Below, one piece after another: positions 1 through 58,485 of a stretch of 62,865 nt of DNA. The stretch spans positions 1 to 62,865 of the IMG/VR virus record IMGVR_UViG_3300034023_000183; one strand, 5' to 3'. The notes below the pieces were generated by a model. The model was not told where the DNA came from and ran no database searches. It saw only the letters and a list, made by a program, of their open reading frames with translations. The stretch comes from a virus. Every line of letters begins with the position of its first letter. The stretch's first letter is position 1. Position numbers and translations under genes: made by a program.

Positions 1-513
1 AAAGGTTTGGTTCTACAGATGGAAAACGACCAGATCACAGAAGTGTCTGGATGGGGTATGGCAGACTTTTTTAGAGATATCATGCGTGAGAACCCATACA
101 CTCAGAAGTTGGGATGCTATGATCCATACCTACACAAGTACATACTTGCATTTAACGATCAGAAGGTTGTACCTTGTAAGTTGACGCTGAGCAGATATTC
201 ATACAAAGGTCCATCTACACCATTTAATGTGATGGCATTCTTGATTAGCACAGATTCTGCCTGGACGATAAGCGTTCAAAATAATGGATACGGAACAAAC
301 TGGGTGTCTAACTATGCCACGTCTGGATTTGGACCGCAGAATATATTTATCAATGTGGCTCAAAACAATACAGGTTTTAATAGATTTATTACCTTTGTGG
401 TGTCATACTGTGACGGTTTAACTCAAGAATTTGTGTTAAATCAAGCAAAAGGCAAGAGAGGAGATGTTGTATTGACAGTATTTAATAACCCAACACCAGT
501 TATAAAGGGATAA
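1..513 (+). CDS. 3' end of large tail protein (rest at 59394-62865)
   Basis: This is the C-terminal 170 residues of the gene that starts at 59394. The frame is open from base 1, and the last 10 bases of the window repeat the first 10, so joining the ends keeps the frame and gives a protein of about 1,324 residues. The stop TAA shares its last base with the ATG of the Thr-rich gene (TAATG overlap), which suggests translational coupling. An ATG at base 25 is internal and not a likely start. I see no enzymatic motif in this part. Confidence 0.85.
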   Translation, partial: KGLVLQMENDQITEVSGWGMADFFRDIMRENPYTQKLGCYDPYLHKYILAFNDQKVVPCKLTLSRYSYKGPSTPFNVMAFLISTDSAWTISVQNNGYGTNWVSNYATSGFGPQNIFINVAQNNTGFNRFITFVVSYCDGLTQEFVLNQAKGKRGDVVLTVFNNPTPVIKG

Positions 514-3335
514 TGAGATCTAATCAAAAATTCACTGTAAACGGAAACACTTATAATATAAGCAATATTCCGTTGCTTGAAAATGGTATATCACTATTTA
601 ATGCAGAGAGTGGTGTTGGTGGTTATGAATATATGCCAGCCGATGGCGAGACAGTCATAGTAGCAGCTGGTGAACTTACTGGAGACGATACTACATTTAG
701 GACGTTTGATCCTACGATGAACAATCAGATATACTATCTTGTGTCTAATACTCAGTATACAACTGCTGACAGAGATAGGATACTAGATCAAGCTATTTCC
801 GTGCCAGTTACATATGTAGACCAGATGTATGTTGGTAGCTTTGTATTTAGCAATCCTAATGACTTTCAGTATCTATACTTGATATGGGACTATACAGATA
901 GATTGATAGGTACTATATCTTATTCTGGAGATGCTACTGAAAGAAATGTAACTACTGGCTATTCTACAAGTATTGGTAGAGCTGGAATTGACTATACAAC
1001 TGCTAATAAGCCAGTTAGATATCAGATAGGGTGGAACGGTATTATTGTAGGTGACACTGGATACGTTGGATTGAATTCAATGGCAAACTATGACGACTTG
1101 ATTGGACAGAAGATTGATCCATCTTTGATTAAGCTTGTAGAGCCATTTGATGGAACAATAAACAATGGTAATGGTTCTCTCATATTCAATAAGTATCTTT
1201 CAACAGCTGAGGCTACTATATTTGTATCTGCACCATTAAAGACTACTGTATTTACTATTACAAAGGTTGCAACTTTTTTGACATCATTCTTTTTGGATAC
1301 GACTGACGGTGATGAGAGTACAGTATGTTCGCAGACTCCAGTTGATGAGAAGTGGCATAATGGTACGTCTGCTCAGCCAGTTGTTGGTAATATAATCTAT
1401 AATGATTCAGACGGTTCTGAGGTATACAACGGAGGAGATGCTCTTCACCTTGGATACGACAACATCTATTTTAGAATATCTACAAATGGTATTGTTTCCT
1501 TTGTAGGAAACTGTATATGTCCAGAGTATGCGCCACCATTTATATATCAAGGAGACATATACGTTAACATAAACCAAGCATTCAGTATTCAGATAGCAGC
1601 TACTGGTAATCCTAATAACTGGACTATAGATACTGCTCTAGACAGCTATTTATTATCTCCTGGAACTACGTCAACTGCATTTGAGTATACGGACTCAGAC
1701 AATGTGGTTAGAAGAATATCTGTATCCACAAACACATACGTTTGTTCGTATACTGCCCCAACTATTTTGTATGGTGATGGTTCATATACTTCAGATGGGA
1801 ATTGTGGCACTTCAACTTTGCCTGATGGCGTTAACTTTGACTTAACTAATGGAACATTGTCTGGTTCATCTACTGGGCCATGTTTTTATCAATTTACAGT
1901 AAAGGCTTCAAACTGTTTTGGTGATTCAGCGTTGAAGACTATAAGCATTAATGTTAACGACACAATTAATAACACACCGTTCTTAATTGACGTAGAGAAC
2001 TTTGGAGATACTGGAGATGCAGCTTGTGCACTTGCTGTGCCTTTGTATAGTGTGTACTACCATAATGGTGCTGGACGTGTTCCTACCGTTGGTGACACTA
2101 TATATTCTGACGATAATCTTACTACTCCGTTCATGGGTGGTGACCAGTGGTATAAGATTGACCACTCGACATACAGCATACAAGTAAATCCATTTGGTAG
2201 AGTATGCGAGAAGAACGAGTGTCCCGTATCTACGACTACGACAACTAGTACGACAACTACAACTAGCACGACTACTCTTCCATCTGGAGATTATTTTGAG
2301 GCTACGTTGTGCGTAAATGGTGCAGTCACTGCTGTTATATTTGACGCAACAACTGCTGGACTAGCTCCTGGTGATACGGTTAAAACAACTGACGGTAACT
2401 GTTGGACGATTGATTCTACTACAACGGCAAGTTATCCGTACTATTCGATTGAAGCTTTGGCTACGGTATATGGTGATTGTGATACATGTTTGAACGTAAC
2501 TACTACAACAACTACCACTACAACTACAACGGCAACTCCAGTACTTGCGTTTGATGCAGATCCGACAGCATACGAAAGTTCTAGTGAGGCATGTGCATCT
2601 GGTACGGCTCCTTATACTACGTTCTATCATAATGGCGAGGTAACGTATCCTAATGTGTACGACTTTATATTTACAGATTCTTTGGGTACAACATACTTTG
2701 ATGGTGCTTACGGATGGTACTACATGGACAACGGATACGTAATACAGATTGCGACTACTGGTCAAGTGTTAAGCGTTATCGATTGCTCTGCCACTACTAC
2801 TACAACTACAACCACGATACCTACATGGTACTATGAGGCTGTAGAGTGTGGAACAGCTAGCCCTACATTTATAGTATCGCAGCAGAGTTTCACAGAGCTT
2901 ATTGTGGGTAATGTTGTGAAATGTGATGATGGAATATGTTATACTATTACTACTACTGGAGAGTCTGCACCAGCTGATCATGTTATATTGTTTGTATATG
3001 CTACATGTCTAGACTGCCAAGGTGTAACGACTACAACTACTAGTACTACTACAACAACAACTACTAGTACTACCACGACAACTACGACTACAACTACGAC
3101 TCTTCCTCCGTTGACTAAGATAACGACAAGAAGTGGATCAAGCACTGGAGTTTGTTCTGGAACGCTTGGAGAATTTTTTGTTGACGGACCTCTTGGTGTT
3201 TACGGAAATAGTATTTATATTTACAGTTCTGGATACTCGTTGGCACCAGCAGCATACTATTTAAATACTATCACTGGTATAGCGTATGAGTGGGACGGAA
3301 CAGATTGGACAGGCAATTCAGTTACATGCAGTTAA
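513..3335 (+). CDS. Tail/fibre-like protein with poly-threonine linkers and repeated domains
   Basis: A 940-residue protein. Four runs of almost pure threonine with some serine lie near residues 572-592, 662-677, 760-771 and 838-867 and separate small Cys-containing domains. One domain type (YHNG, then GD.IY.D, then a closing Cys) occurs about three times, near residues 270-335, 490-571 and 677-760. A second type, with Cys pairs near its end, occurs twice (about 593-660 and 772-837). The Thr codons are mixed (ACT, ACA, ACG, ACC), so these are not simple DNA repeats. Mucin-like Thr tracts are typical O-glycosylation sites, and the next gene is glycosyltransferase-like. Its place between the tail gene and more tail genes points to a surface-exposed tail appendage or receptor-binding protein. 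Function is inferred from position. Confidence 0.75.
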   Translation: MRSNQKFTVNGNTYNISNIPLLENGISLFNAESGVGGYEYMPADGETVIVAAGELTGDDTTFRTFDPTMNNQIYYLVSNTQYTTADRDRILDQAISVPVTYVDQMYVGSFVFSNPNDFQYLYLIWDYTDRLIGTISYSGDATERNVTTGYSTSIGRAGIDYTTANKPVRYQIGWNGIIVGDTGYVGLNSMANYDDLIGQKIDPSLIKLVEPFDGTINNGNGSLIFNKYLSTAEATIFVSAPLKTTVFTITKVATFLTSFFLDTTDGDESTVCSQTPVDEKWHNGTSAQPVVGNIIYNDSDGSEVYNGGDALHLGYDNIYFRISTNGIVSFVGNCICPEYAPPFIYQGDIYVNINQAFSIQIAATGNPNNWTIDTALDSYLLSPGTTSTAFEYTDSDNVVRRISVSTNTYVCSYTAPTILYGDGSYTSDGNCGTSTLPDGVNFDLTNGTLSGSSTGPCFYQFTVKASNCFGDSALKTISINVNDTINNTPFLIDVENFGDTGDAACALAVPLYSVYYHNGAGRVPTVGDTIYSDDNLTTPFMGGDQWYKIDHSTYSIQVNPFGRVCEKNECPVSTTTTTSTTTTTSTTTLPSGDYFEATLCVNGAVTAVIFDATTAGLAPGDTVKTTDGNCWTIDSTTTASYPYYSIEALATVYGDCDTCLNVTTTTTTTTTTTATPVLAFDADPTAYESSSEACASGTAPYTTFYHNGEVTYPNVYDFIFTDSLGTTYFDGAYGWYYMDNGYVIQIATTGQVLSVIDCSATTTTTTTTIPTWYYEAVECGTASPTFIVSQQSFTELIVGNVVKCDDGICYTITTTGESAPADHVILFVYATCLDCQGVTTTTTSTTTTTTTSTTTTTTTTTTTLPPLTKITTRSGSSTGVCSGTLGEFFVDGPLGVYGNSIYIYSSGYSLAPAAYYLNTITGIAYEWDGTDWTGNSVTCS

Positions 3336-4243
3336 AATTTATATCTGCTCAACCAGCCATTGATTATTACGCTTGGCAGGCTGAGGTTTACATCACACAG
3401 TTCTTGAGACTGGGATACAATCCAGAGGACATATACGTCATTGCTGGGTACGAGGACGAGCCAGACATGTCATGGCATAAGTTGATGAGGAAGTTCCCGA
3501 AGGTGAACATACACATCTACCGTGACACGACTGGACCTATTGACTACCAGCCAGCTGTGCAGGCTCATCTTCTTGAGAAGCACTGGGCCAAGTTCCCAGA
3601 GTCACAGAACTATGCGTGGTTCTTCCATGATGCCGATTTTCTGTTTACTAAGTATTTCGACTTTTCTCCATATCTTAAAGACAACAAGTGGTACTTCTCT
3701 GATACTATCAGTTATATAGGTGCCGACTATATAAAGAGCAAGGGAGACGTGGTACTGGACATTATGTGTCAAACAGTAAATATTGACAGATCTACCGTAG
3801 AGGCAAACCAGAAGAACTCTGGTGGTGCACAGAAGCTTATGAAGAACGTGACAAAAGAATACTGGGCTGCGGTGTACAAGTCATCGATCGACCTATATGA
3901 CATTTTAAGAAAGGTATCACACATCAAGAAAGAAGGCGACGAGTACGGCATACAGATATGGACGGCAAGTATGTGGGCTGAGCTGTGGAACGCATGGAAG
4001 ATGGGCTATGTTGTTGAGGTACCGAAGGAGTTTGACTTCTGCTGGGCTACATGTCATGTAAGCAAGTGGGACGAACTGGCGTTCTTCCACAATGCTGGTG
4101 TGCCAAACGCAAGCAGCGGAATGTTCTTTAAGGCAGACTACATAGATAAGTTTCCGTATGGTACGAATCTAGACATAGATAACAGCAGGTGTAGCTATAA
4201 ATACTACGAGATCGTTAAATCAATTGACAGCTATATAATTTAG
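3326..4243 (+). CDS. Glycosyltransferase-like protein (GT-A type)
   Basis: A 305-residue protein starting at the ATG that overlaps the previous stop (ATG, 4 bases, TAA). An earlier in-frame ATG at 3290 would overlap more and looks spurious. Around residues 98-107 there is a hydrophobic strand followed by His-Asp-Ala-Asp (D102-x-D104), a DxD-type motif of GT-A glycosyltransferases that binds metal and sugar nucleotide. No signal peptide or membrane segment is visible, so it should act in the host cytoplasm. The tight overlap with the poly-Thr protein makes that protein the obvious candidate acceptor. The family call rests on motif and general pattern only. Confidence 0.6.
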   Translation: MQLKFISAQPAIDYYAWQAEVYITQFLRLGYNPEDIYVIAGYEDEPDMSWHKLMRKFPKVNIHIYRDTTGPIDYQPAVQAHLLEKHWAKFPESQNYAWFFHDADFLFTKYFDFSPYLKDNKWYFSDTISYIGADYIKSKGDVVLDIMCQTVNIDRSTVEANQKNSGGAQKLMKNVTKEYWAAVYKSSIDLYDILRKVSHIKKEGDEYGIQIWTASMWAELWNAWKMGYVVEVPKEFDFCWATCHVSKWDELAFFHNAGVPNASSGMFFKADYIDKFPYGTNLDIDNSRCSYKYYEIVKSIDSYII

Positions 4244-4251
4244 TATCTTTG
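4224..4251 (+). promoter_or_regulatory. Bacteroidota-type promoter before 4256 gene
   Basis: TATCTTTG at 4244-4251 fits TAnnTTTG, with TTG 17 bases upstream. Only 4 bases separate it from the ATG, so the transcript would be almost or fully leaderless. Confidence 0.65.
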
Positions 4252-4255
4252 CAGT

Positions 4256-4993
4256 ATGGCAATAGAGACTCTATCATATTCACCAGCAGCTAACGGGTGG
4301 TCATCCCGTTGGTCATTCGAGCCAGATTGGATGGTTGGAATGAATAATAAACTGTACACATGGAAGGACGGTAGTCTTTACGAGCACTACTCCAATGAGA
4401 CTAGAAATGAGTTCTACGGTGTGGCATATCCTTCTACCGTTACGAGTATATTAAACGAGTTTCCTCAAGACAGAAAGATGTACAAGACTCTTGCTGTTGA
4501 TAGCGACCATGTGTGGTCTGCTGAAGTAGAGACAGAGCTTGGAGAGGGTGCAATTGCTTCAGATGAGTTTCAATTAAAGGAGGGCGTATGGTTTGCATTT
4601 ATCAGACGCAACGATGGTGATCTTGACTTGCATGAGATATCTGTACAAGGTCTTGGAGTTGTTGATGCATTTAACTACCCTAACATAGACCTTGCATATC
4701 CATATGATACTGATGGGCATATAAGCATTGGTGATGCATTGTATAAGATTGATGGATCTGGTGCTCTTGTGTTCTTGGCAAATGTTTTAGATCATAATGA
4801 ATTTACAATATCTGTAGATGCACCACTTGCTGCTCCTTTAACAATGGGTGATTTTCTAGTGTACGCTAAGAACAGCGTAGCCGAGTCGTTTGGTGCTCGT
4901 GGGTACCATATGATCGTTAAGCTTACCAACAATGATCCAGTCCAAGTGGAAATTTATTCACTTCGATCAAATGTATTCAAAAGTTTTGAATAA
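4256..4993 (+). CDS. Tail structural protein, crAss-like type
   Basis: A 245-residue soluble protein. The N-terminal half has a pattern I associate with tail proteins of Bacteroidota podoviruses: a W-S-S-R-W-SF-PDWM stretch, then LYTWKDGSLYEH, then FYG..YPSTVTSI. The gene has its own promoter 4 bases ahead and sits between the fibre-type genes and the ejection proteins, so a virion role is likely. No catalytic motif is visible. The exact role in the tail cannot be read from sequence. Confidence 0.6.
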   Translation: MAIETLSYSPAANGWSSRWSFEPDWMVGMNNKLYTWKDGSLYEHYSNETRNEFYGVAYPSTVTSILNEFPQDRKMYKTLAVDSDHVWSAEVETELGEGAIASDEFQLKEGVWFAFIRRNDGDLDLHEISVQGLGVVDAFNYPNIDLAYPYDTDGHISIGDALYKIDGSGALVFLANVLDHNEFTISVDAPLAAPLTMGDFLVYAKNSVAESFGARGYHMIVKLTNNDPVQVEIYSLRSNVFKSFE

Positions 4994-5016
4994 GTAACGA
5001 TTATTGCTTATCTTTG
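4986..5016 (+). promoter_or_regulatory. Promoter TTG-N20-TATCTTTG
   Basis: TTG at 4986-4988 and TATCTTTG at 5009-5016 are separated by exactly 20 bases, the same spacing seen in the best minus-strand promoters of this genome. It drives the gene starting at 5035. Confidence 0.75.
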
Positions 5017-5017
5017 T

Positions 5018-5031
5018 GGGTAAAATTACCC
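5018..5031 (+). promoter_or_regulatory. Inverted repeat in leader (hairpin or operator)
   Basis: GGGTAA and TTACCC arms, 6 bp, are separated by AA. The repeat lies between the promoter's TTTG and the ATG at 5035, so it covers the likely transcription start or the short leader. It could be a repressor site or a small RNA hairpin. Confidence 0.45.
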
Positions 5032-5034
5032 AAT

Positions 5035-5679
5035 ATGATAGGAACTATAATGGCTGTTGCTTCTGGTCTTGTAAGTGCTGCTCAAGCGGTCAGTAACTTT
5101 CAGAAGGCAAAGAAGGCCGAGAAACAAGCAATAACTTTAGGGAATCAAGCAAATGCCGCAAAGATCGCAGATCAATACGCAGCGTTCCAAGCACCAGACA
5201 TTGCTTCAGCACAGTATAACGAGACAATGCGTCAAGCTACTCAAGCTACTCAAGCCTTGCAAGGTATGGGTCCAGAGGGTGCTGGACAGATCGCAAATCT
5301 AAACCAGTCTGTACTTCAACAAAACGCACAGACAGCTGCTGAACAGGCAAAGCTGAACTTTCAGCGTGACCAAGCTGTAGCTGAAGGACGAAACCAAAAT
5401 GCACAGTACGAGTACTCAGCAAAAATGAATATGTTGCAAGGGGCACTAGAGGGAGCACAAGGTGCGTCTACAGCTGGTCGTCAAAATGCAATGGGAGCTA
5501 TTGCTGGAGGTATTGAGGGTATCGGTGCTGGTCTTTCATATGACTATGGAGATGCAGACAAGGTTTGGAATGAAGGTAAAAAAACTAATACTGGATTAGA
5601 TGGTCAGACTGGAGGAAAATCGTTGACTGATAAAAAAGGAACAAAGAATGTTACGACTACCACTACAGCTCGTATGTAG
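5035..5679 (+). CDS. Internal virion (ejection) protein candidate, Ala/Gln-rich
   Basis: A 214-residue protein starting at the first ATG after the promoter and hairpin. A TTG 21 bases earlier lies inside the promoter and cannot be the start. The N-terminus is a Gly/Ala-rich hydrophobic segment (IMAVASGLVSAAQAV). A long Ala/Gln-rich helical region follows, then a Gly/Ala stretch near residues 150-175, and the tail is Lys/Thr-rich. Small helical proteins of this type lie before larger ejection proteins in T7-like and crAss-like phages. The role is inferred from composition and position. Confidence 0.55.
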   Translation: MIGTIMAVASGLVSAAQAVSNFQKAKKAEKQAITLGNQANAAKIADQYAAFQAPDIASAQYNETMRQATQATQALQGMGPEGAGQIANLNQSVLQQNAQTAAEQAKLNFQRDQAVAEGRNQNAQYEYSAKMNMLQGALEGAQGASTAGRQNAMGAIAGGIEGIGAGLSYDYGDADKVWNEGKKTNTGLDGQTGGKSLTDKKGTKNVTTTTTARM

Positions 5680-5700
5680 TAAATAACAAATAATTAAATC

Positions 5701-7194
5701 ATGCCAGAATACTACGGATACGTTGCCCCAGATCAAGTCAATCTTGGTAAGTCTATTGCTAATGTAGCAGAGATGTTTATTGCTGCCGAGGACAAGCGAA
5801 AAGCAAAACGTGAGGGCGAGCAGAAGTCATTAGATGAAGCCAGAAAGAAAATAAGTGAGATTGAGCAGACGAGCAATCCATCTATTAACAGCTTGGTGAA
5901 CAATGGAGTTGATGGTGCAAGAAATTATATTGTAAATCTAGAGAAGATGCGTAAATCTGGTAAGATTACTGGAGCAGACTTCAATAGAGCAATGACCAAT
6001 ATAAATGAGTCTTGGGATAACTTTGCGTTCTCAACAAAGAATATGAATGAGCGATTGGCCGAAAATATGGCTAGAGCAGAATCTGGTGAGGCATCGGCAG
6101 TTGAGATGAAGCGTGCTCAAATTCAATCTGACATTTTAAATACAAAGGACAAGAGTATTATAGTTGGAGAGGATGGTAACATGTACATGATCGACAAGAA
6201 CAATCCAGACAAGCCTATAAGTTTAAGATCACTAGGTAATCTAGACAACATGGTTCACAACAAGATGGACATAGATGCGATAGTGAATGATGCTGTAACT
6301 AAGTTTGGAGATTTTACTATTGAATCTGGGACAAGTACAGAAAGTGGAGCAAGAACTCAAGGAGAATTATATAACGCAACTAAAGTTGATATAATCAATT
6401 CAATCGTAAACAAGAAAAACCCAGCAGCAGTAGTGTCATTATTGATGGATAACATGGGTGCAGATTACGATCAATACTATAACAATACTGAGAAGAACGA
6501 ATTGCTAGATGAGGCTGTTGCACGTCAAGAGAAAATTTCTGGATATCCAATGGACGAAGAGCAAAAGAAAGCGTTTAAGGAGGACTATCTGAAGAACAAG
6601 ATGATTGAATACAGGATAGATGAAAATGGAGTCTATCAACCAGTCGTTACAGAACAGATGATTAAAGAGGCCGAGAATTTCATAGACCGAAAGATTGAGA
6701 TGCAAGTCGGTAGAACTAAAACAGAGGACGAAGATCGAGCAGCTAGAGGAGGAGGAGATGGATCAGCGATCCCAAAAGTATCATCTGTAGAAGAACAAAT
6801 AGTAGCTGACGCTAGATCTGCATGGAAGAATAATGATGTAAATGCACTTAGAAGAGCAAGTAACGACCAATATTTCTTTGTATATTCACCAGATGGTGGA
6901 GTTAATGTATTTAAAACTAATCCAGAGAAATATCAAGAAGCATTAGCACAATATAAAAAAGAAAAAGCTGCTTGGGATAAATTAAGCAGAGAAGAAAAAC
7001 TACGTAAATCAGAACCAAAAAAACCAGAGGCAAAAGGGGTTATTGCTGAAAATATAAAAAGCGTTGATGGTTTATATCCATATTTCTTTGGTTCTGGTAG
7101 TACTAATATGGAGAAATGGAAATCTATATTAGAACAACAAAGAGCTGCTGAAGGTGGTAGTGGAACTACAACTACTAAAAAGAAATTTAACTGA
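5701..7194 (+). CDS. Internal virion/ejection protein candidate
   Basis: A 497-residue, charged, mostly helical protein with no membrane segment or catalytic motif that I recognise. The middle (about 340-360) has an acidic/Gly linker, and the last 20 residues are low-complexity Gly/Thr/Lys. It is followed after 8 bases by the giant polyvalent protein. The series small helical protein, 500-residue protein, giant protein resembles the internal core proteins of podoviruses, which leave the capsid with the DNA. The function is inferred from this context. Confidence 0.5.
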   Translation: MPEYYGYVAPDQVNLGKSIANVAEMFIAAEDKRKAKREGEQKSLDEARKKISEIEQTSNPSINSLVNNGVDGARNYIVNLEKMRKSGKITGADFNRAMTNINESWDNFAFSTKNMNERLAENMARAESGEASAVEMKRAQIQSDILNTKDKSIIVGEDGNMYMIDKNNPDKPISLRSLGNLDNMVHNKMDIDAIVNDAVTKFGDFTIESGTSTESGARTQGELYNATKVDIINSIVNKKNPAAVVSLLMDNMGADYDQYYNNTEKNELLDEAVARQEKISGYPMDEEQKKAFKEDYLKNKMIEYRIDENGVYQPVVTEQMIKEAENFIDRKIEMQVGRTKTEDEDRAARGGGDGSAIPKVSSVEEQIVADARSAWKNNDVNALRRASNDQYFFVYSPDGGVNVFKTNPEKYQEALAQYKKEKAAWDKLSREEKLRKSEPKKPEAKGVIAENIKSVDGLYPYFFGSGSTNMEKWKSILEQQRAAEGGSGTTTTKKKFN

Positions 7195-7202: not shown

Positions 7203-10200
7203 ATGAACGATAAACAAAAGGAATTATATTCTTATTTAAGAGATAACGATCTTACTGATTTAGATTCAACAGCATTTTTTTCTAAATATTCAGATCCATC
7301 TAAGTCAAAGGAAATTTATGCCTATTTGAAACAGAATGGCATGACTGATTTAGATGCAAATGCTTTTCACGTTGCATACTTTTCTCCAGTTAAAAAAAAA
7401 AGTACTACGGTATCACCATCCGTACAAAAGAAAAAACCTACTTCTTCGGGTACTATGCCGAGTTGGATGCAAAGCTCTTTGGAGCAATCATCAAAAAAAG
7501 AACAAGCAGCTAAGAAGACTGTTGTTCCAAAAAAAGCAAAGAGTTCTAATATTTCTTTGGATGTAGAATCATTAAAAAATCCAAATGCTCCTAAAAAGGA
7601 AAAACAAGATTTTGATATATACTACGGATATCCTGGACAAGAAAAAAATCAATATAGAATAAGCAACGGAAGATGGCAAAGAAAATATGGCCAGAACTGG
7701 GTGGATGTATCTAATCCAGGATCTATAGATTCTTTAACTAAATTCTTTAAAAAGGAAAAAGAAATATTAAAAGATGAAAAAGTATTTACTGGATTTCCTG
7801 GTAAAGAAAATAATAGATATAGAATATCTGAACTACAGAACGGACAAAAAGTTTGGGAGGTTCAAAGAAGTGGTCAAAAAGATTTCACTGTAATTGCAGA
7901 TCAAGGATCAATCGATGCGTTAAACAGACAGTTTAACAAAAAGATTCAGTACAATGATGATGCACAGAGCAAGCGAGAGGCACAAATAAATAGAAGAGAA
8001 AGTGCATCTGAAGATTTCAAGACAGTTACTGGCAAGCTTGTAGGAAAGGAATCTGATGAGGTTTCTAAGTACTTAAACAAATTGTATGGTAACCGAGGAT
8101 TTAGATTCACTCCAGTAGGCTGGTTAACAGATAGAATACGAGTAAGTGCAGAGGGTACTGACAGAACAGAGATATTTGAATTAGACAACTGGACAGACAA
8201 TACGGATTCAGCTGAGGCATTAAAGTTAAGAAAATTCTTATCAGAGAATCAACAGTTGGGTGACTATATCGATCTTGAAAGGGAAGAAGAAAAGAATGCT
8301 GAAAAGGATATTTTAGGTACAGAATTGACTAGGGAAGATCTTGATAAACAAATTTCAAGACTTCGAGTTGCTGGAAATCAAGCCGAATTTAAATCAGCTC
8401 AAAAACAAAATACCGAAGAGAATATTGCTAAAGGGTTAAACAAAAACTCTACAGATGTAATTGAAGCTAGAAAAACATTGATTCGTGCTAAATACGATAC
8501 AAATCAAAGAATAGACGACCTAACAAAAACAGCAAAGACGAAGTCTGAAAAAAGCGAACTAGCTGCTATTGCTATGGCTAATAAAGGTAATTTTGTTGAA
8601 ACACATAAGGTAGACAATGAATATATAAATGATTTAAATAAAACAAGCAAGGCTCTAGATGGTGATCTTAAACAACTTAAATCAGATGTAGATGATTTTA
8701 ATGCATACATAAAAGAAAATAAAATAACTAAAGAGCAACTAGAATCTGATCCAGAGCTTATGGCTAAAAAAGATTCTATTCAAGTGAGATACGACCAGCT
8801 AGTAGCTAGTGCAGATGAATTTGAATTTGAATCTAAAAAAATTCCATTCATACAACAACAAAACTCTAGAAATGCTGCTCTTTATTTTGCTTACAATGAA
8901 ACTAGGGGTAGCGTTATTGGTAGCACATGGAACGGACTTGTTAGAGGGTTTCTTGCTCCAATGCAAACATTCAGAGTTGTAGATAAGGAGGGACTAGATA
9001 ATGTTGTAGAATTTCTAGGTAGCTCAAGCACAGCGGAATTTGCACAATCTAAAGATAGAAATGATTTATCTAGAGCATTATTAAGTACGTCTGAATCTCT
9101 TGGTGCTGCTGTTATGGCTCGATTGACTGGAGGTATAGCTACTGAAGGAACAATAGCTAGTAAGGCACTTCAATTTACTCCATTCTTCTCTATATCATAC
9201 AATGAGATGCAGAATGAAATAAATAGCATTCCAGGAATGAATAAGGTGCCTTGGTATAAAAAAGAGGCTCTATGTATAGCATACGGTATTGGAGTAGGTT
9301 ATTTAGATAAACTATCAACTGATTTTTCAGTAAAAGGAAAAATATCAAATAAGATTGGAAGAGATCTAGTATTAAGAAGCATAGCTGGCTTACCTAAAGG
9401 CGCATCTGCTGAAGCTATAGAAATGGCAATCGCAAGTAATTTTAAGAAAAGTTTAGCAGCTGGAACCATAAAAATAATAGCTGGTTCTGTTGTAGAGGGA
9501 ATTACAGAGGGCGTTCAATCTACATATGGAACTGGACTTAAGGAGGCTTATGACTGGATGAATGGAGTAGATGAGTTTGATTCAAGAGAATGGATATCAC
9601 AAGCTCTTGAGGAAACTTATTATGGAGCATTGGGAGGTAGCATTATGAGTACTCCTTCAGCATTATTAAAGGGTACAAAGGATGGATTTGCCAGACTCAA
9701 TCCACAACAGATGGAGTTGGCAAGAAAGGTAATAGAGGATTCCAATATGCGTTCAATGGTTATAACAGATATCAAGACTAAGTTGATGTCTGGAGAAATA
9801 ACCAAGGAAGAGGCTAACAGCCAGATGGAAGCTATAAAAGAGTCTCAAGCTTTATTTTCAAAGATACCAGACAACTTGTCGGCAGAAAGTACATCTAGAG
9901 CTATGGACCTCATAAAGGAGCGTTCAGTTATAGAACAACAAATAAAAGGTAAGGATAAAGACCTTGTGATTGCTAGAACAAGAAGAATAGCAGCAATTAA
10001 TAACGAACTTAAAGTAATATCAGAAAATGCCATTAAAGAAAGCACAGAACAGCAGCAAGAAGGCACAGCAGAAGGCGGTGTCGTTCAACGTGAGGGAGTT
10101 GTTGAAGGACAACCAGAAGTCGGGCAAGGAGAAGGGACAGTCGGGCAAACCACGGAGCAAGGCACAGATATTGGCGATCGCACTGTCGAAGGCAGGAGTC

Positions 10201-13200
10201 AAGAAGAAATAGATACCAGAGTATCTGAACTTGAGGCAATGTTGGCGGATAATATTGCAGCTATCGAGGAGACAGGTACTGGCAAATTATCAGAGGCAGA
10301 AGTTGAGGCTGCACGCAGCGAAATTGAAGCATTGAAGTCTGAAGTTCCAGTAGAGACAGCAGCAAAGATGCCAGCCGCTAAGCCAGTGCCACCTATAGCG
10401 GAGACTACTGACACAAAGACCTACTCTGAGGCCCTTAGTTCTGCAAAGGCTGAACTCAAGGCAGAGGGTAAAGGATTAGACCTGCAGGTATCTGATGTAT
10501 CCCAAGAGGAGGCAGATCAGATTATAGCTGATGGAGGAAAGATATTCATGACTGAAGACGGACTGGCAGGAGCCTACGTTAAGAAGGACGGATATATGGG
10601 CGGTCTATTCAAGAGTCCTAGAGCTACATACAATAAGGTAGCGAAGTTGCTTCAGCAGGCACGTATTAAGGTAGGTGGTAGATTCATGGATGCTTATGCT
10701 ACAGAACTTGAGAAGATATACATAGAGAACGGATTCCGTCCAGTTGCACGACTTAAGTTCAATGAGGAGTATGCACCAGAAGGATGGGATGCACCAGGAT
10801 CAGCGTTGGCATCTAAGCCAGACGTTGTGTTCTTTGCGTATGATCCAGATGGAAAGTATAGCATAGGTGACGGTGAGTACGTGACTGACTATGACGCTGC
10901 ATACGAGATGGCCAAGAACTTTGATTCTAAGGTCTCTAATGAAGCAGACAAGTTGGCAGAGTTGATGAAGGGATCTACAGTTGTTGAGGGGACTGAACAA
11001 CAGGTTGATGCTTTAATAAAGGAGATAAGTAATTCTGAAGACGTTGTTTCTGAGCGTTATGTTCTTGAGGCGGTTAATAATGCGACAAAGGCATTGAGAG
11101 CTATACTTCCAAATGTGAAATTCGTACTTCACAGTACAGACGAGTCATTTAGAAAAGCTGTTGGTGAGACAAACGAGACAGACTCATCACGTGGAGCATT
11201 CGATCCTGGAAAGAAGGTTATACATATAAATCTTACAAAGGCAAACAGAAGAACTGTGATGCATGAGGTATTTCATGCTATTATCGTGTCTAAGGTATCA
11301 TCTGATGCTAAGCTTCAGAGCTTGACAAAGAACATGGTCAAATCTGTAATAAAGTCATTGAAGCAGTCTGGTGCAAATCAGAACGTAATTACTTATCTAG
11401 AGGAATTTTCAGCTGGATATAAGGCTGAGGAGCAAAATGAGGAGAAGTTGTCTGAACTTTTTGCATTGCTTGGAGAGACATATAAAAGTCTACCTTATCC
11501 AACTCAGAACATTATCCAACGATTCTTAGATAGAGTCGCAAAGATGTTTGGTCTTAAGGAGATGACTGACCGTGAGGTTGTAGATTTCATGAACTCATTG
11601 TCTGGCAGAGTTGAGGCTGGTATAGAAATTAGTCCTAAGGAGTTTAAGGTAAGTAAAGCTACGATCAAGAGTGCAGTAAAAAAATTCCAAGCTAATTTTA
11701 AAGATGAAGTATCTGGGCTTGAATTTGTCTATGATGAAAACGGAGAAAAATTTGCTGAACTAGAAAAGGATGGATTTATAACTAAGGATAGATCTATAAC
11801 AAACTTTGATGGTCAATACATGTTCTTTCATCAGCCAGATGCAGCATTCTCTGGAATGATAGTTAAGCGTAACAAAAAAACTGGAGAAGTTGAACTTTTA
11901 ATTGAAGGAAAGGGTGGAATGTATTACCCAATAAAATTCCATGAGAATGGGTTTTTCTGGGCCAGTACAAGCAAAGTAGCTGAAAAAATGGCTAATGACT
12001 TGAATGAAGCTATGGAACAAAATGGAGGTAAATTATTGATGGCCTTAACATCAGCTCCATACGATAAGCTTTTATCTAGCACTACAGCTGCAAATTCAGT
12101 TATGGACTTAATATCTTCAAAAGCATTTGATAGAAATTTTGCCATAAGTCCAGCTCAATTAAAAAATATATTAATAAACGCAGCCGCTTTCACTAAAGAG
12201 CAAAAAAATATTATCAAGGATAAAAACAAAAAACCTATTCTAGATAAAAACGGAAATGTTCAATATAGAATTAAAAATGTTGGTTTAGGAATTAAAATCA
12301 AAAAAGGAGATTCATTAGAAGATGTAAAATCAAAAATAAAAGAATTATTGAATCCAGACGCTAAATCATTTGCTGATAGAAAGACTTTTGTTGAGGCAAT
12401 GATAAAAGAGACTGTTGATATAATAAATTCAAATCCTAAAGCTATAAGTCAATTTGGAGAATTTTTTAGTACTGGAATACAAAACAAATATTTCAAGGGC
12501 ACAAGAAAGAAGGGATATAACATATCTACTGCAAATATGAAACAAGCTTTGTCTGAGATGTTGACAGAACCAATGCTGAAGGAAGGTGTTAATAGAGACA
12601 AGGGAGGACAGATATATGCAATAATAGAACTAGATGGAAAGGTTAAGCCAGTTGATTCTGATCTGCATGAATCATATCCTAAAGCTATACAATCAGTTGA
12701 TCCTAAAAACAATAAAGTTAAGCTACATATATTGACTGATCGAGTTAAATGGAACGAAGTAGCTGAAGATTTTGAGACCAATGATATTGTTGCCCCTGGG
12801 GATAGAGAATTAGAGATATTTCCTACTAGCGGTATATCTGTTAGAGCATTAAAAATAAACACCAAAAACATAGTCACAGAAGAGAAGGCTACTGAAGTTG
12901 AGGATAAATCAACCATCAAAAAGCAAAAACCACTACAGCCAGAGGTAGCTGAAAAGCTGACGGAAGACGGTAAGGGTAACTTTGTGTTCAATCACTACTC
13001 TGATAAAAAGAGAGATGTGATCAAGCCTGGAACGGGACAGAACATTATTACCAGCCGAGAGGAAGGTAGTGCGTTAAGTGCTGTCGGTGGATTGGCTCAG
13101 TACTACACAATGGACATGCAGAAGGAGATGGGTACTGGTCCTAACCAACACACCATACTCATACCTATGGACCGTGTGTACTACTTCAACAAGGATCAAG

Positions 13201-16200
13201 ATGGATTCTATGACGAAGCGAAGAGAAGATTTGAAGAGGTGCGTCCAGGTCAAGCATTCAGTCCGAACTACCAAGTGGCATTCATAACGCAAGTTGCGAA
13301 TGAGAATGGGTACGACATAGTTGTTGCTAACTGGAGAAACGGAGAGCTTCGTGCTCAGACTACTTTGGAGCTTACACCTTCAGACAAAATAATCAATTTC
13401 AAGCCATTGAAGGAGGTTACATATGAGGTAGGAGACACTATTGAAGTTTACGGTGGAAAGGCAAAGATCACTGCTATTGATGGTGATATAATAACTTTCA
13501 AGGGTGAAACAACTGGTGGTACTATAAACTTCAAGAGAAGTCCAAAGAGCATCCAGAAGGTAGCTACTCCAAAAGCACAGGTTGAGGAAGAGGTGAAGTC
13601 TCTAGATGAAGAGATGAAGCCTAAGATGAAGAAGCAAAGAGTAGATAAGGCATCTGAAAAACTTCAACAGTTATTTGAGAGAGATAATGTACCACTTAGC
13701 ATTCAAGAGGCAAAAGATATAGTAAATGAAGTTTATGACTGGACCACATGGTACGATGACTTAAAGTCATATGTTGACGGAATATTTGGAGAATACGCTG
13801 AGGATGTATTATCAATGTTACCTTTATCTTCTCAAGCTGCTAACAGTGCAACTACTGTAGCATTAGCAATAAAAAATGCAGAACTTATATACCAAGGAGA
13901 AAAGCCTGTAGGTGTTGCAGAGTACTATGGATATGTCACTGATTTCTTACAAGGCAAAGGAATAAAGTCAGATAAGATGTATAACTTCTTTAAGGCTTTG
14001 GATGGCGATAAAGATGCTATTGCTGTTGACATGCATGTTTGGTCAATAATAATGGGTAAAAATCCAGATAAAAAACAAGTAAACCCTAAAAATCAAGCAG
14101 AATTTGACAGAGCAAAAGAATTTATAAATACTTTAGCTACTGAAATGGGGCTTGCTCCAAGAGAGGTCCAAGCTGCATTATGGGCAGCAAATATAATGAG
14201 AACTGGAGGAAGACCAGATAGCTATGAAGAATACTTTAAAAAACAACTAGATGGAAAAGGACTTAAAGAAAGGATCGAAAACTGGAGGAACGAAGGCTAT
14301 AAGCCATTTTCTAAAGTTCGTAGAGAAAGAGAAGCAGAAAACCAACCAAAATTCAAAAAACAAAAGCCAAGCAAACAAGCAGACGTGATTGTGAAGACTG
14401 GTAAGGAGGCTGGGTTCTCTGACGCTGGTATCCGTGAGTATATGAAGCGTAACGGATATACTGACCGTCAAGCTACTGATGCGATAAGGGCATACAACGA
14501 CAAGAAGGAGGGTATATTTATCGATCCAGAGTGGTCTAAGTTGAGAAAGGCAGCCGTTATATTCAAGCGAAGATTCTTATTGTCTCGTGGATTAATGCCA
14601 AGTTCTGCATTTGCTTCATATGAAGAAAGTCAAGCTAACACAGCAAAAGATTTTAATAGAGCTGAAAAAACACTAGTTGACTTCAATCGTGCTATGAAAA
14701 AAGTTCCAAAGGCAGACAGAGATAAAGTTAGAATAGACTTTGATGAATATGTTCGTGGAGACAATACGGTATCTCTTCCTGCTGATTTGAAAAAAGTAGC
14801 AGATACTATGCGTGCTCACATTGATTCAATCTCTATAAGTTTAATAAACAGTGGAGTTGTTGATGAACACTTAGCACAAAAGATAAAAGACAATCTTGGA
14901 TCATATTTCACTAGGTCTTATAAGGTACATGACCGTGCAAACTGGAAGAATGAAGTTGAAGAAGATATAAAGCAGAAGGCCATAAATTTATTGAAGGTTC
15001 AATATAGGAAAATGGCAGAAGAAGAAGCTGCTAAGGAAAACATGGATGTAGAGGAAGCTCTTGACAACCTTGTTACTAATGCTGTTAATGATATGCTCAC
15101 TAAATCTGGTGCAGAGAACTTTGTTTCTGGAGGCAAAAAGGGAAGCAAGGATTTATCTATACTAAAGGAGAGACAAGATATTCCACTTGAGATTCGTATG
15201 TTGATGGGTGAATACACAGATCCAGCACAGAACTATGCAAGAACAATCCTTAAAATGTCTGCTCTTGCAGCAAATCATCACTTCTTAACAGAAGTAAAGA
15301 AGAATGGAACTGGGGTATTTTTATTTGAAAAGAATGATCCTAGAAGGCCTTTAGATTTTGATTACAAAATTGCGGCCGAGGGAAGTGAAACCATGAATCC
15401 TCTCAATGGTATGTACACCACTGAGGAGATAGGAAAGCAGTTTGAAGAACAATCATCTCAACTTAATGGTGCCCTTAAGTGGATGCTAGAAACATACATG
15501 AAGGTTCTATCTTCTGTCAAGTGGGGGAAAACCATTGGTTCAATCATGACTCACGCAAAGAACGTGTTTGGTAACCTTGGATTTGTTTTGCTAAATGGTC
15601 ACTGGAGAGTAAATGAAATGGGTAAAGCATACCAAACTGTAAGACGTGATTTGTGGTCAACAGATAATGAAAAATCTAGAGAATACATGAATCACCTAAT
15701 AGGTCTTGGTATTGTAAAACAATCTGCTGGTATAGGTGAACTTCGTGCAATGTTTAAGGATGCAGATTGGGATACTGCAATGGTTGAAAGACTAAATAAA
15801 AAATCTTCGTCTGCATTGGAATTTATTAAATATAAAATTGGTGGTAGAGTAAAAAAATTCCTAGAAGACAGATACCAAGCTGAGGATGACTTCTTCAAGA
15901 TTGTCGCATACGAGAATGAGCTTTCTAGATATTCTAAGGCTATGTTTGGCAAAAGAAAGACAGAACTTACTAAAGAAGAAAAGGCAGAGGTAGATAAGGT
16001 TGTAGCTGAAATAGTTAAAAACACTTATCCAACATACAGTAGAATACCAGAGCTTGTTAATGTAATTAGAAAATTCCCATTTGTTGGTAACTTTATAGCG
16101 TTCCAAGCGGAGTCATACAGAACTGCATTTAACACAGCAGCACTTTCACTAGAAGAGATTAGATCTAAAAATTTTAAAATTAGAATGATTGGTGCTCAAA

Positions 16201-17090
16201 GACTTGTTGGATCATTAACGTATATGGCAGGTAAGACTGCTATATTGTCTGCATTTTCTAATGCAGTTGGTATGGGATATGTTGGAATACTTGGATATTT
16301 TACGGATGATGATGATGAAAAGCAAAAAGAGAATGATGTTAGAAAATTCGTAGCTCCTTGGTCTAAGAACTCAGACCTAGTTGTTTTAAAGGCAAGTAAT
16401 GGAAAGATACGATACATAGACTTTAGTTCATCAGATCCTCACGGAGGAATCAACAAGGCACTAAACTCTGCACTATCTGGAAAGACTACCATTGACGGAT
16501 TCATAAATGCAATAGGTTCAACCATTGAACCATTTGTGGGTGAGGAGATGACAACGGCTGCAATACTTGCTGTAAAAAACAATCAAGACGCATACGGAAA
16601 ACCTATATACAATCCAGAGGATACATTCGCTCAAAAGTCTAAGGACATAATAGCTTATATGCTGAATGTTGTGCAGCCTGGGACCGTTAGTACAATGAAG
16701 AGGATATATGAATCTGAGAGTGTTCTAAATGAAGTTCTTGGGGCATCTACAGGTATGAGAGTATATGACGTGGATGTAGCTGAGAATTTTGGTTACTCTA
16801 TGATAACCTATAGAAATAGAATGGAGGATGCTAAGAGAATATACAACTCTGAGGTGTATTCAAAGGATGCGACAGATAAGTCTATTGCTGATGCAAAGAA
16901 GAGAGCCGAGAATGCAATAACTCAGATACACAAAGAGATATACGAAAGGTATTACTCGGCTGTTAGATTGGGTGCAAATGAGGATGTATTGTTTGACAAT
17001 ATAAAAAGATTTGGAAGAATGTCAAATATAGATATGCAGTTTATGTTTGGAGAGATTCCATATCTTATGGAAGAAAAATACGCAGAATAA
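7203..17090 (+). CDS. Giant polyvalent protein with metalloprotease motif, probably ejected with DNA
   Basis: 3,295 residues, 16 percent of the genome. In order: two ~30-residue repeats with Y.YL and TDLD signatures (1-62); two copies of a GYPG/GFPG...YRIS module (about 142-195 and 197-250); a helical, partly hydrophobic region (600-880); a Glu/Gln/Gly linker (943-1000); a region resembling the GNAT-like domains of phage polyvalent proteins (about 1067-1245); a zinc-metallopeptidase motif H1354-E-V-F-H1358; an ART-like region starting NHYSDKK (about 1929-2080); a region like the helical DUF7178 type (about 2148-2370); and an 850-residue C-terminus with a hydrophobic pair near 3003-3037 before an Asp-rich turn. 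Polyvalent proteins are known to be packaged and injected to counter host defences. Only HEVFH is strong evidence here; the other domain names are resemblances. Confidence 0.75.
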   Translation: MNDKQKELYSYLRDNDLTDLDSTAFFSKYSDPSKSKEIYAYLKQNGMTDLDANAFHVAYFSPVKKKSTTVSPSVQKKKPTSSGTMPSWMQSSLEQSSKKEQAAKKTVVPKKAKSSNISLDVESLKNPNAPKKEKQDFDIYYGYPGQEKNQYRISNGRWQRKYGQNWVDVSNPGSIDSLTKFFKKEKEILKDEKVFTGFPGKENNRYRISELQNGQKVWEVQRSGQKDFTVIADQGSIDALNRQFNKKIQYNDDAQSKREAQINRRESASEDFKTVTGKLVGKESDEVSKYLNKLYGNRGFRFTPVGWLTDRIRVSAEGTDRTEIFELDNWTDNTDSAEALKLRKFLSENQQLGDYIDLEREEEKNAEKDILGTELTREDLDKQISRLRVAGNQAEFKSAQKQNTEENIAKGLNKNSTDVIEARKTLIRAKYDTNQRIDDLTKTAKTKSEKSELAAIAMANKGNFVETHKVDNEYINDLNKTSKALDGDLKQLKSDVDDFNAYIKENKITKEQLESDPELMAKKDSIQVRYDQLVASADEFEFESKKIPFIQQQNSRNAALYFAYNETRGSVIGSTWNGLVRGFLAPMQTFRVVDKEGLDNVVEFLGSSSTAEFAQSKDRNDLSRALLSTSESLGAAVMARLTGGIATEGTIASKALQFTPFFSISYNEMQNEINSIPGMNKVPWYKKEALCIAYGIGVGYLDKLSTDFSVKGKISNKIGRDLVLRSIAGLPKGASAEAIEMAIASNFKKSLAAGTIKIIAGSVVEGITEGVQSTYGTGLKEAYDWMNGVDEFDSREWISQALEETYYGALGGSIMSTPSALLKGTKDGFARLNPQQMELARKVIEDSNMRSMVITDIKTKLMSGEITKEEANSQMEAIKESQALFSKIPDNLSAESTSRAMDLIKERSVIEQQIKGKDKDLVIARTRRIAAINNELKVISENAIKESTEQQQEGTAEGGVVQREGVVEGQPEVGQGEGTVGQTTEQGTDIGDRTVEGRSQEEIDTRVSELEAMLADNIAAIEETGTGKLSEAEVEAARSEIEALKSEVPVETAAKMPAAKPVPPIAETTDTKTYSEALSSAKAELKAEGKGLDLQVSDVSQEEADQIIADGGKIFMTEDGLAGAYVKKDGYMGGLFKSPRATYNKVAKLLQQARIKVGGRFMDAYATELEKIYIENGFRPVARLKFNEEYAPEGWDAPGSALASKPDVVFFAYDPDGKYSIGDGEYVTDYDAAYEMAKNFDSKVSNEADKLAELMKGSTVVEGTEQQVDALIKEISNSEDVVSERYVLEAVNNATKALRAILPNVKFVLHSTDESFRKAVGETNETDSSRGAFDPGKKVIHINLTKANRRTVMHEVFHAIIVSKVSSDAKLQSLTKNMVKSVIKSLKQSGANQNVITYLEEFSAGYKAEEQNEEKLSELFALLGETYKSLPYPTQNIIQRFLDRVAKMFGLKEMTDREVVDFMNSLSGRVEAGIEISPKEFKVSKATIKSAVKKFQANFKDEVSGLEFVYDENGEKFAELEKDGFITKDRSITNFDGQYMFFHQPDAAFSGMIVKRNKKTGEVELLIEGKGGMYYPIKFHENGFFWASTSKVAEKMANDLNEAMEQNGGKLLMALTSAPYDKLLSSTTAANSVMDLISSKAFDRNFAISPAQLKNILINAAAFTKEQKNIIKDKNKKPILDKNGNVQYRIKNVGLGIKIKKGDSLEDVKSKIKELLNPDAKSFADRKTFVEAMIKETVDIINSNPKAISQFGEFFSTGIQNKYFKGTRKKGYNISTANMKQALSEMLTEPMLKEGVNRDKGGQIYAIIELDGKVKPVDSDLHESYPKAIQSVDPKNNKVKLHILTDRVKWNEVAEDFETNDIVAPGDRELEIFPTSGISVRALKINTKNIVTEEKATEVEDKSTIKKQKPLQPEVAEKLTEDGKGNFVFNHYSDKKRDVIKPGTGQNIITSREEGSALSAVGGLAQYYTMDMQKEMGTGPNQHTILIPMDRVYYFNKDQDGFYDEAKRRFEEVRPGQAFSPNYQVAFITQVANENGYDIVVANWRNGELRAQTTLELTPSDKIINFKPLKEVTYEVGDTIEVYGGKAKITAIDGDIITFKGETTGGTINFKRSPKSIQKVATPKAQVEEEVKSLDEEMKPKMKKQRVDKASEKLQQLFERDNVPLSIQEAKDIVNEVYDWTTWYDDLKSYVDGIFGEYAEDVLSMLPLSSQAANSATTVALAIKNAELIYQGEKPVGVAEYYGYVTDFLQGKGIKSDKMYNFFKALDGDKDAIAVDMHVWSIIMGKNPDKKQVNPKNQAEFDRAKEFINTLATEMGLAPREVQAALWAANIMRTGGRPDSYEEYFKKQLDGKGLKERIENWRNEGYKPFSKVRREREAENQPKFKKQKPSKQADVIVKTGKEAGFSDAGIREYMKRNGYTDRQATDAIRAYNDKKEGIFIDPEWSKLRKAAVIFKRRFLLSRGLMPSSAFASYEESQANTAKDFNRAEKTLVDFNRAMKKVPKADRDKVRIDFDEYVRGDNTVSLPADLKKVADTMRAHIDSISISLINSGVVDEHLAQKIKDNLGSYFTRSYKVHDRANWKNEVEEDIKQKAINLLKVQYRKMAEEEAAKENMDVEEALDNLVTNAVNDMLTKSGAENFVSGGKKGSKDLSILKERQDIPLEIRMLMGEYTDPAQNYARTILKMSALAANHHFLTEVKKNGTGVFLFEKNDPRRPLDFDYKIAAEGSETMNPLNGMYTTEEIGKQFEEQSSQLNGALKWMLETYMKVLSSVKWGKTIGSIMTHAKNVFGNLGFVLLNGHWRVNEMGKAYQTVRRDLWSTDNEKSREYMNHLIGLGIVKQSAGIGELRAMFKDADWDTAMVERLNKKSSSALEFIKYKIGGRVKKFLEDRYQAEDDFFKIVAYENELSRYSKAMFGKRKTELTKEEKAEVDKVVAEIVKNTYPTYSRIPELVNVIRKFPFVGNFIAFQAESYRTAFNTAALSLEEIRSKNFKIRMIGAQRLVGSLTYMAGKTAILSAFSNAVGMGYVGILGYFTDDDDEKQKENDVRKFVAPWSKNSDLVVLKASNGKIRYIDFSSSDPHGGINKALNSALSGKTTIDGFINAIGSTIEPFVGEEMTTAAILAVKNNQDAYGKPIYNPEDTFAQKSKDIIAYMLNVVQPGTVSTMKRIYESESVLNEVLGASTGMRVYDVDVAENFGYSMITYRNRMEDAKRIYNSEVYSKDATDKSIADAKKRAENAITQIHKEIYERYYSAVRLGANEDVLFDNIKRFGRMSNIDMQFMFGEIPYLMEEKYAE

Positions 17091-28968: not shown

Positions 28969-28984
28969 AACATTTGATTTTTAG

Positions 28985-29058
28985 TGGACCATGCAGGGAT
29001 CGAACCTGCGACCTTCTGATTATGAGTCAGATGCTCTGACCTATTGAGCTAATGGTCC
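28985..29058 (-). tRNA. tRNA-Met (CAT), possibly tRNA-Ile2
   Basis: A full cloverleaf on the minus strand: acceptor GGACCAT/ATGGTCC with discriminator A, TA at positions 8-9, D-arm GCTC/GAGC, anticodon arm TCTGA/TCAGA with loop CTCATAA (anticodon CAT), and T-arm GCAGG/CCTGC with loop TTCGATC. No CCA is encoded. CAT may read AUG, or AUA if the C is changed to lysidine; the sequence alone does not decide. Confidence 0.93.
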
Positions 29059-48438: not shown

Positions 48439-48686
48439 ACGCAGGTCTGAAGGGTGTTGATGAATTAATTAAGGTCCTTGAGTCTCCCATACTGTTGGCT
48501 GGTGATGAGTTATCGGCTGACAAGATGAAGGCGGCAGCTGCGGCTAAGCGTCTAGCATTTGAGGATGCATTGGCAATATATGACCGTGTACAGGCTGAGA
48601 AGAATGCAGACGAGTACAACGAGATAGAGGTTAAGGCTGCTGCAATCCCCGTATCATTTGTTGAATCAAAGGCGAAGACTAAATGA
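48411..48686 (+). CDS. Small helical protein before TerL, possible small terminase
   Basis: 91 residues, helical with Ala-rich middle (DKMKAAAAAKRLAFEDALAIYDRV). It overlaps the previous gene by 28 bases and the TerL start by 4. Small terminase subunits often sit here, but no HTH is clearly visible, so the assignment is by position. Confidence 0.4.
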   Translation: MSDKREQILNAGLKGVDELIKVLESPILLAGDELSADKMKAAAAAKRLAFEDALAIYDRVQAEKNADEYNEIEVKAAAIPVSFVESKAKTK

Positions 48687-53313: not shown

Positions 53314-53321
53314 TAAATAAT

Positions 53322-53663
53322 ATGACACCAGGAAAATTTATAGGTATGTTGTTCCAGTCAAGAGACATGATGCACTTGACACACTTGGACACTACATCAT
53401 TTGCAGAACATAAGGCACTTGGGGCTTACTACGATGCAATTTTGGATTTGACAGACTCATTTACTGAGAAGTACTTTGGTCGTAACAAACGAGTAGAGAT
53501 CGTAATCCCAGAATCTAAGAAGATGTCAGCTGTAGAGCACATGAAGGCTATGCAGAAGACTATCGAGGCAGAGCGTGATAACTATCCGTCAGATCTTCAG
53601 AACATCATGGATGAGATGTTAGGTCTTGTAAATAAAACATTGTATTTATTGACGTTGGTATGA
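53322..53663 (+). CDS. DUF5856-like protein
   Basis: 113 residues, helical. LFQSRDMMHLTHLDTTSFAEHKALGAYYDAILDLTD is the hallmark I link with DUF5856, thought to be a ferritin-like four-helix bundle. The closing part is MQKTIEAERDNYPSDLQNIMDEMLGLV. Its function in phages is not known; position suggests an assembly or virion role. Start of next gene overlaps by 4 bases. Confidence 0.6.
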   Translation: MTPGKFIGMLFQSRDMMHLTHLDTTSFAEHKALGAYYDAILDLTDSFTEKYFGRNKRVEIVIPESKKMSAVEHMKAMQKTIEAERDNYPSDLQNIMDEMLGLVNKTLYLLTLV

Positions 53664-53941: not shown

Positions 53942-53942
53942 T

Positions 53943-53964
53943 ATTACTTTTTTAAGTAATTTTG
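53943..53964 (+). promoter_or_regulatory. Hairpin followed by TAATTTTG promoter
   Basis: ATTACTT and AAGTAAT (7 bp, TTTT loop) merge with TAATTTTG (53957-53964), a TAnnTTTG element. It stands before the scaffold and capsid genes; an extra promoter here would raise head protein output. Confidence 0.6.
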
Positions 53965-53986
53965 CAGTAATTTAAATTAAATCAAA

Positions 53987-55066: not shown

Positions 55067-55087
55067 AACAACTAAAACTAAAACAAA

Positions 55088-56485: not shown

Positions 56486-56501
56486 TAGAATATCAAATAC
56501 T

Positions 56502-56523: not shown

Positions 56524-56551
56524 TTATTTTCTTAATTTAAATCTAAATCAA

Positions 56552-58482: not shown

Positions 58483-58485
58483 CAG

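Follow-up and report, generated by a model that had tools for sequence, protein, structure and literature searches.

A giant modular phage protein with a conserved zincin core and a protease-coupled junction motif

Which functions are packed into a single gene that takes up about a sixth of a phage genome, and what is a metalloprotease motif inside its product for? The question is raised by the window analysed here, the whole 62,865-nucleotide stretch of IMG/VR virus record IMGVR_UViG_3300034023_000183. An earlier note, made from the sequence alone, had described one 3,295-residue gene using 16 percent of the genome, and this holds: the giant polyvalent protein gene (7203-17090, plus strand) opens with ATG, runs as a single frame without internal stop for 3,295 aa (369.6 kDa) and uses 9,888 of 62,865 bases (15.7%). 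It is not a chance frame, because related phages have kept it: L002 aligns to the protein at 34-78% in three blocks spread along its length, and L003 is identical to it across 1,036 aa. No near DNA match to the record was found among 50,697 phage records.

A giant mosaic gene at the end of the virion block

The giant gene is the last of a virion gene block that runs from terminase through portal to further virion genes (Table 1); the continuity of this block through positions 7-7194 holds if the end of the record is joined to its start. Elsewhere in the window, we observed a phage-encoded GroEL-type chaperonin of 529 aa (37467-39056; PHROG 5725, E 1.8e-130) and a tRNA-Met (CAT) on the minus strand (28984-29058). 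A minus-strand tRNA-Met is likewise found among the early genes of elemovirus MT497077.

Table 1. Window coordinates of the features discussed, with residue numbers of the giant protein
Feature	Position	Strand	Residues	Remark
Terminase	48683-50890			part of virion block
Portal	50887-53313			part of virion block
Structural proteins	up to 59394			block from 48683 to 59394, then 7-7194
Small internal-virion-like protein, 221 aa	5014-5679	+		position of phi18:3 gp120 (MS/MS-found) and elemovirus gp23
Internal-virion-like protein, 497 aa	5701-7194	+		position of phi18:3 gp121 (MS/MS-found) and elemovirus gp22
Tandem N-terminal module	7218-7394	+	6-34 and 35-64
Second duplicated N-terminal module	7614-7943	+	~138-185 and 193-247
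N2 region	8880-10082	+	560-960	34 domain matches in giant set
GNAT acetyltransferase-fold domain	10395-10910	+	1065-1236	fold match; PHROG 2563
Zincin-like metallopeptidase domain	11046-11645	+	1282-1481	29-member alignment
HEVFH (H1354, E1355, H1358)	11262-11276	+	1354-1358	in model helix 285-300
NEE motif, candidate third zinc ligand	11439-11444	+	E1413/E1414	both invariant in 29 homologues
MID domain, unnamed	11670-12917	+	1490-1905	common to elemovirus and marine giants
Junction motif 1, KKQK	12918-12929	+	1906-1909
ART-like domain	12930-13577	+	1910-2125	conserved H1931, Y1968
Junction motif 2, KKQR	13629-13640	+	2143-2146
DUF7178 domain	13641-14354	+	2147-2384	exchangeable cassette, motifs at both ends
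Junction motif 3, KKQK	14355-14366	+	2385-2388
C-terminal chassis domain	14367-17087	+	2389-3295	predicted largely helical

Judging from sequence comparison, the N-terminal repeats, N2, GNAT, zincin, MID, ART-like, DUF7178 and C-terminal chassis regions are separate modules, because blocks come and go independently among relatives. L002 matches residues 1-346, 596-2146 and 2380-3295, without 2147-2379; the elemovirus giant matches residues 1273-2165 only; L004 and L005 match from 1065 to ~1483 (L005 to 1613) as well as 2134-2388; and Pseudoalteromonas phage Y3, Cellulophaga phage phi18:3 and HTVC027P match C-terminal parts only. The DUF7178 cassette, absent from L002, is found in L004, L005 and L014 with KxxQ-type motifs at each end.

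The N-terminal duplications proposed earlier are real. Residues 6-34 align to 35-64 with a self-alignment score of 83 (maximum of 36 in 500 shuffles, none reaching 83), and residues 138-185 align to 193-247 with a score of 91 (maximum of 49, again 0/500 at 91). The N2 region, common to many giants, belongs at a guess to the ejection chassis. The MID domain, modelled with pLDDT mostly 80-90, occurs in many marine giants and has the conserved motifs FWAS, HQPDAAFSG, LLSSTTA and HESYPKAI. The C-terminal chassis is common to phi18:3 gp123, HTVC027P gp85 and Y3; the long helical C-terminus of the earlier reading is plausible, but the model of this part is poor (mean pLDDT 56). A hydropathy scan showed no 19-aa window above 1.5, that is, no sign of a classical membrane segment. 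In four other phages (proteins L062_4616, L063_4532, L072_5960 and L074_5960), a separate protein of 570-600 aa is encoded directly upstream and has the N-terminal module of the giant close to its C-terminal end, a placement that hints at fusion or fission between the two virion proteins.

Putative cargo domains and the zincin core

An AlphaFold model of residues 1065-2145, built from 40 alignment rows, reached a mean pLDDT of 76.7, with ~90 across most of the GNAT domain. The predicted fold of this domain bears out the suspected GNAT-like region, with matches to the N-terminal acetyltransferases Naa10 (4kvm_E; Z 12.0, rmsd 2.4, 124 aligned residues) and RimI (5isv_A; Z 11.9); among the top matches listed in the PDB fold search with the whole model, there were GNATs only. 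This result agrees with the RimI-like GNATs that polyvalent proteins are known to include (Iyer et al., 2017; PMC5512222). The domain also shares 35% identity with the C-terminal end of gp4 from Microbacterium phage UtzChips, annotated as “minor capsid protein”.

The HEVFH motif noticed earlier is present, and conservation together with the model indicates that it is the core of a conserved zincin. Across 29 homologues that are 27-49% identical to the present domain, the sole invariant residues are G, N, H, E, H, A, E, E and G, a pattern of HExxHA, EE, G and N that covers H1354, E1355, H1358, E1413 and E1414. In model numbering, a helix at 218-237 is followed by strands at 242-246, 267-270 and 275-279, the HEVFH helix at 285-300 and a helix at 349-365 that starts from NEE. 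This predicted layout is that of a zincin, with an N-terminal helix, a small beta sheet, an HEXXH helix and a Glu in a later helix. The zinc-protease geometry expected around H1354/H1358 thus agrees in secondary structure and conserved residues, and at that level only. Five giants of our second set (L092, L110, L123, L141 and L159) have a pair of HEXXH motifs separated by hundreds of residues.

For the ART-like region, we sought the ART-PolyVal / Tox-ART-HYD2 pattern of H in strand 1, Y in strand 2 and D in strand 5. H1931 and Y1968 are invariant in 14 ART-like members, most of which also retain the D of NGYD (Q in L024). None of the 14 matched Pfam ART-PolyVal (PF18760) at E 0.1, a threshold at which the Y3 and Shewanella Y11 controls do match, and a PDB profile search and an hhalign comparison with the Y3 ADP-ribosyltransferase were negative. 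The conserved H...Y pattern of the proposed ART is therefore present and the profile match is absent, and we keep the assignment of residues 1910-2125 at the level of a motif.

The cassette that follows contains DUF7178 (PF23802; residues 2255-2329), at 35.3-35.4 bits for a curated cut-off of 27; a contig scan for this domain gave one weak match, and its model, with a pLDDT of ~40, is of too low quality for use. Its segment LQGKGIKSDK...AIAVDMH resembles the glycosylase segment LPGVGRKTA...IAVDTH, with a helix-hairpin-helix (HhH) plus catalytic-Asp layout. A reading of the domain as an HhH-GPD DNA glycosylase found no support: it had no PF00730 match at E 10 (14/14 control genomes were positive), the PDB profile search was unsupportive, and hhalign to Nth/MutY gave a probability of 1.3%, though the aligned piece was the AVDxH segment. 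We keep the resemblance as a lead.

A junction motif coupled to the protease

The motif [KR][KR]Q[KR] occurs three times in the giant protein. Each copy lies downstream of the zincin and coincides exactly with the edge of a module, and relatives with other modules have PRKQ, IRKQK, KRKQI and similar sequences at joints of this kind. We followed it in two sets that together hold ~100 non-redundant giant relatives, the first comprising 54 non-redundant giants chosen by zincin. RKQ was seen 85 times in these 54 proteins versus 26.5 times in shuffles (maximum 34); KRQ, RQK, KQR, QRK and QKR occurred 20-35 times for 23.5-27.6 expected. RKQ was found 0 times in 82 further long proteins encoded on these contigs (64.7 kaa). 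In the giants, its density rises at the zincin from 0.12/kaa on the N-terminal side to 0.99/kaa over the next 1,500 aa, a step that the other orders of R, K and Q do not make. An open scan for asymmetry placed RKQ first among 4,068 tripeptides (69 after the protease, 7 before). When similar contexts were collapsed, 30 independent contexts remained after the protease versus 3 before, with 8-15 versus 8-11 for the other orders, and the [KR]KQ[KR] class is found 35 times after the zincin versus 4 times before. RKQ lies mostly outside recognised domains, but so do the other orders, and this adds little.

The position of the motifs could potentially reflect recombination instead, with modules swapped via a shared linker and RKQ as a leftover of shared DNA. 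Motifs do lie at the edges of swapped modules (DUF7178 in the present protein, L004, L005 and L014; ART), and some linkers are clearly duplicated, such as ITPRKQ...ISPRKQ. However, RKQ is encoded by 17 different nonamers that use all six Arg codons, 30 unrelated contexts share the three residues only, and the motif is missing from N-terminal cargo. Because its codons vary, RKQ is kept as protein and not as a DNA repeat, and we regard recombination as an improbable origin.

A held-out set of 47 giants was picked by the C-terminal domain alone, after removal of overlap with the first set. In the stretch from HEXXH to the C-terminal domain, its HEXXH-containing members had RKQ at 1.15/kaa, versus 0.21/kaa before HEXXH and 0.16/kaa inside the C-terminal domain. 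Members without HEXXH had 0.10/kaa upstream of the C-terminal domain and 0 inside it, which makes RKQ 11-fold denser in the HEXXH proteins. The p values of 4e-5 between the classes and 3e-4 within the HEXXH proteins treat residues as independent and so overstate the certainty. Ranked by excess over composition, RKQ came first in this set; for asymmetry it came third, below the overlapping pair GNL/LGN. [KR][KR]Q was present at an edge in 12/14 ART-like domains that lie C-terminal to the zincin versus 0/7 that lie N-terminal, a contrast that is confounded by descent because the two groups are different subfamilies.

These numbers also bear on what the protease acts upon. The zincin could be an effector that cuts host proteins, like IrrE/ImmA, and RKQ a linker signature of C-terminal cargo that is cut by another protease or left uncut. 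The best PDB profile matches of the zincin are IrrE peptidases (3dte best; E 0.046 and 0.23, not significant, and in the HEXXH region only), 3 of the 29 zincin members weakly match Peptidase_M78, and an effector role is the alternative listed by Iyer et al. (2017; PMC5512222). Against this, RKQ tracks HEXXH and falls to background level without it, in a set not chosen by HEXXH, and we consider such an effector role unlikely. The coupling of motif and protease appears to be new; we found no “RKQ motif” in the part of the phage literature covered, which is incomplete.

Probable virion carriage and possible self-processing

Polyvalent proteins have been defined by at least two domains of disparate activity in one polypeptide, a late or virion gene context, and packaging with injection (Iyer et al., 2017; PMC5512222). 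The present protein combines a GNAT fold, a zincin core, an ART-like domain and DUF7178, and its gene lies among terminase, portal and structural genes, in synteny with genes whose products were detected by MS/MS. A Foldseek search of predicted viral structures returned an elemovirus structural protein as the top match and several matches named NAT, “ART-PolyVal-like” and “Large polyvalent protein associated domain”. Together with the module mosaic, these findings support the identification of the giant as a polyvalent protein, as had been suggested from the sequence. Giant injected multi-domain proteins are a known class.

The suggested carriage in the virion is supported by homology, as measured in relatives rather than in the present phage: phi18:3 gp123 (the C-terminal homologue), gp120 and gp121 are annotated from experimental MS/MS proteomics, and the elemovirus homologue is annotated as structural. 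By analogy, the giant is probably packaged in the virion and may be injected into the bacterium. It could also be mainly a structural ejection or inner-core protein in which the enzyme-like domains are decayed or mere bulk, given that relatives are annotated as structural and that shorter virion proteins, with neither cargo nor HEXXH, have the C-terminal domain too. The invariance of HExxH and EE in 29 diverged zincins, and of the ART-like H and Y in 14 members, speaks against decay, and we consider a mainly structural role very improbable.

Among cultured phages, the Flavobacterium elemoviruses are the closest relatives at the protein level. Their giant structural protein (for example NC_055852 gp21, 3,694 aa) occupies the same place, after two internal-virion-type genes, and shares 53% identity over residues 1273-2165 (zincin, MID and ART-like). 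It differs in having little detectable identity outside this region, no GNAT match, no DUF7178 and RQQK as its junction where the present protein has KKQK. Cellulophaga phage phi18:3 gp123, a 1,935-aa virion structural protein, shares the C-terminal chassis (24% over 689 aa) and is likewise the MS/MS-detected last gene of its virion block, but lacks HEXXH and RKQ. In Pseudoalteromonas phage Y3, a DdrB-ParB/LPD5/LPD1/ART-PolyVal giant is paired with an “ADP-ribosyltransferase”; the chassis is homologous (29% over 833 aa), whereas the zincin is another one, the cargo is DNA-modifying and the system is split over two genes. The virion RNA polymerase of N4 (~3,500 aa) is carried in the virion, injected and packaged uncut, with an internal zincin (PMC5512222); it resembles the present protein in size and protease, but we found no RNA polymerase module here. 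Iyer et al. (2017; PMC5512222) described polyvalent proteins that combine zincin MPTase, GNAT and ART domains and are alike in multi-domain build, late-gene context and zincin hub. In their main text, autoprocessing is proposed in general terms, and it contains no cleavage-site motif and no DNA glycosylase or DUF7178 domain (PMC5512222).

The tags look like cleavage sites because they lie at joints, on one side of the protease, and are missing where the protease is missing. The explanation that we favour, as somewhat more likely than not, is a virion-borne polyvalent protein whose zincin cuts at the tags and frees the C-terminal cargo. In this flavophage-like virus, taken as a podovirus-like Bacteroidota phage, a conserved chassis of N-terminal repeats, N2 and C-terminal domain would be packed in the particle, help ejection and carry exchangeable cargo. 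The built-in zincin would recognise the basic-Gln tag [RK]KQ (here KKQ[KR]) at joints C-terminal to itself and cut there, in the head or after injection. Cleavage at these positions would release the ART-like (~27 kDa), DUF7178 (~28 kDa) and C-terminal chassis (~103 kDa) pieces, leaving a 212-kDa N-terminal part with GNAT and protease; the freed pieces might then modify host proteins or nucleic acids. Iyer et al. (2017; PMC5512222) proposed that polyvalent proteins are processed by their zincins, at a stage before packaging, inside the head or within the host; as an alternative, they named an attack on host proteins.

Several observations argue against self-processing. The N4 virion RNA polymerase stays uncut in the particle despite such a protease (PMC5512222), which would favour cutting in the cell rather than in the head. 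Giants that lack HEXXH are also shorter, with fewer joints. RKQ itself is absent after the zincin from 22 of the 54 giants, among them the present protein, whose KKQ[KR] is a variant; the elemovirus reads RQQK. The polyvalent part of the earlier reading stands; it had missed the motif at the junctions and the part that the protease probably plays in self-processing.

For the group as a whole, we see an even chance that RKQ-type tripeptides are recognition sites of polyvalent zincins in a large group of phages, aquatic and for the most part uncultured. Such sites would form a programmable processing code, in which tag-fenced cargo C-terminal to the protease is freed in the host and N-terminal cargo stays attached. 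Whether polyvalent metalloproteases process their own protein or attack the host has been open since 2017, and a tag that tracks the protease over ~100 diverged giants lets this question be tested directly at named residues. If the proposal is true, the tag would serve as an addressing rule by which to find cargo domains in giant phage proteins that lack annotation, and might bring with it a new site-specific protease.

A possible second junction tag, on weak statistics, is [KRLV]FSR, which occurs downstream of a different zincin in gammaproteobacterial and cyanobacterial polyvalent proteins (L007, L162, L166, L174, L231 and L247). FSR does not lead the open scan, and several copies lie just past HEXXH in a conserved stretch. 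In 22 gammaproteobacterial giants, it is found 12 times after versus 2 times before the zincin.
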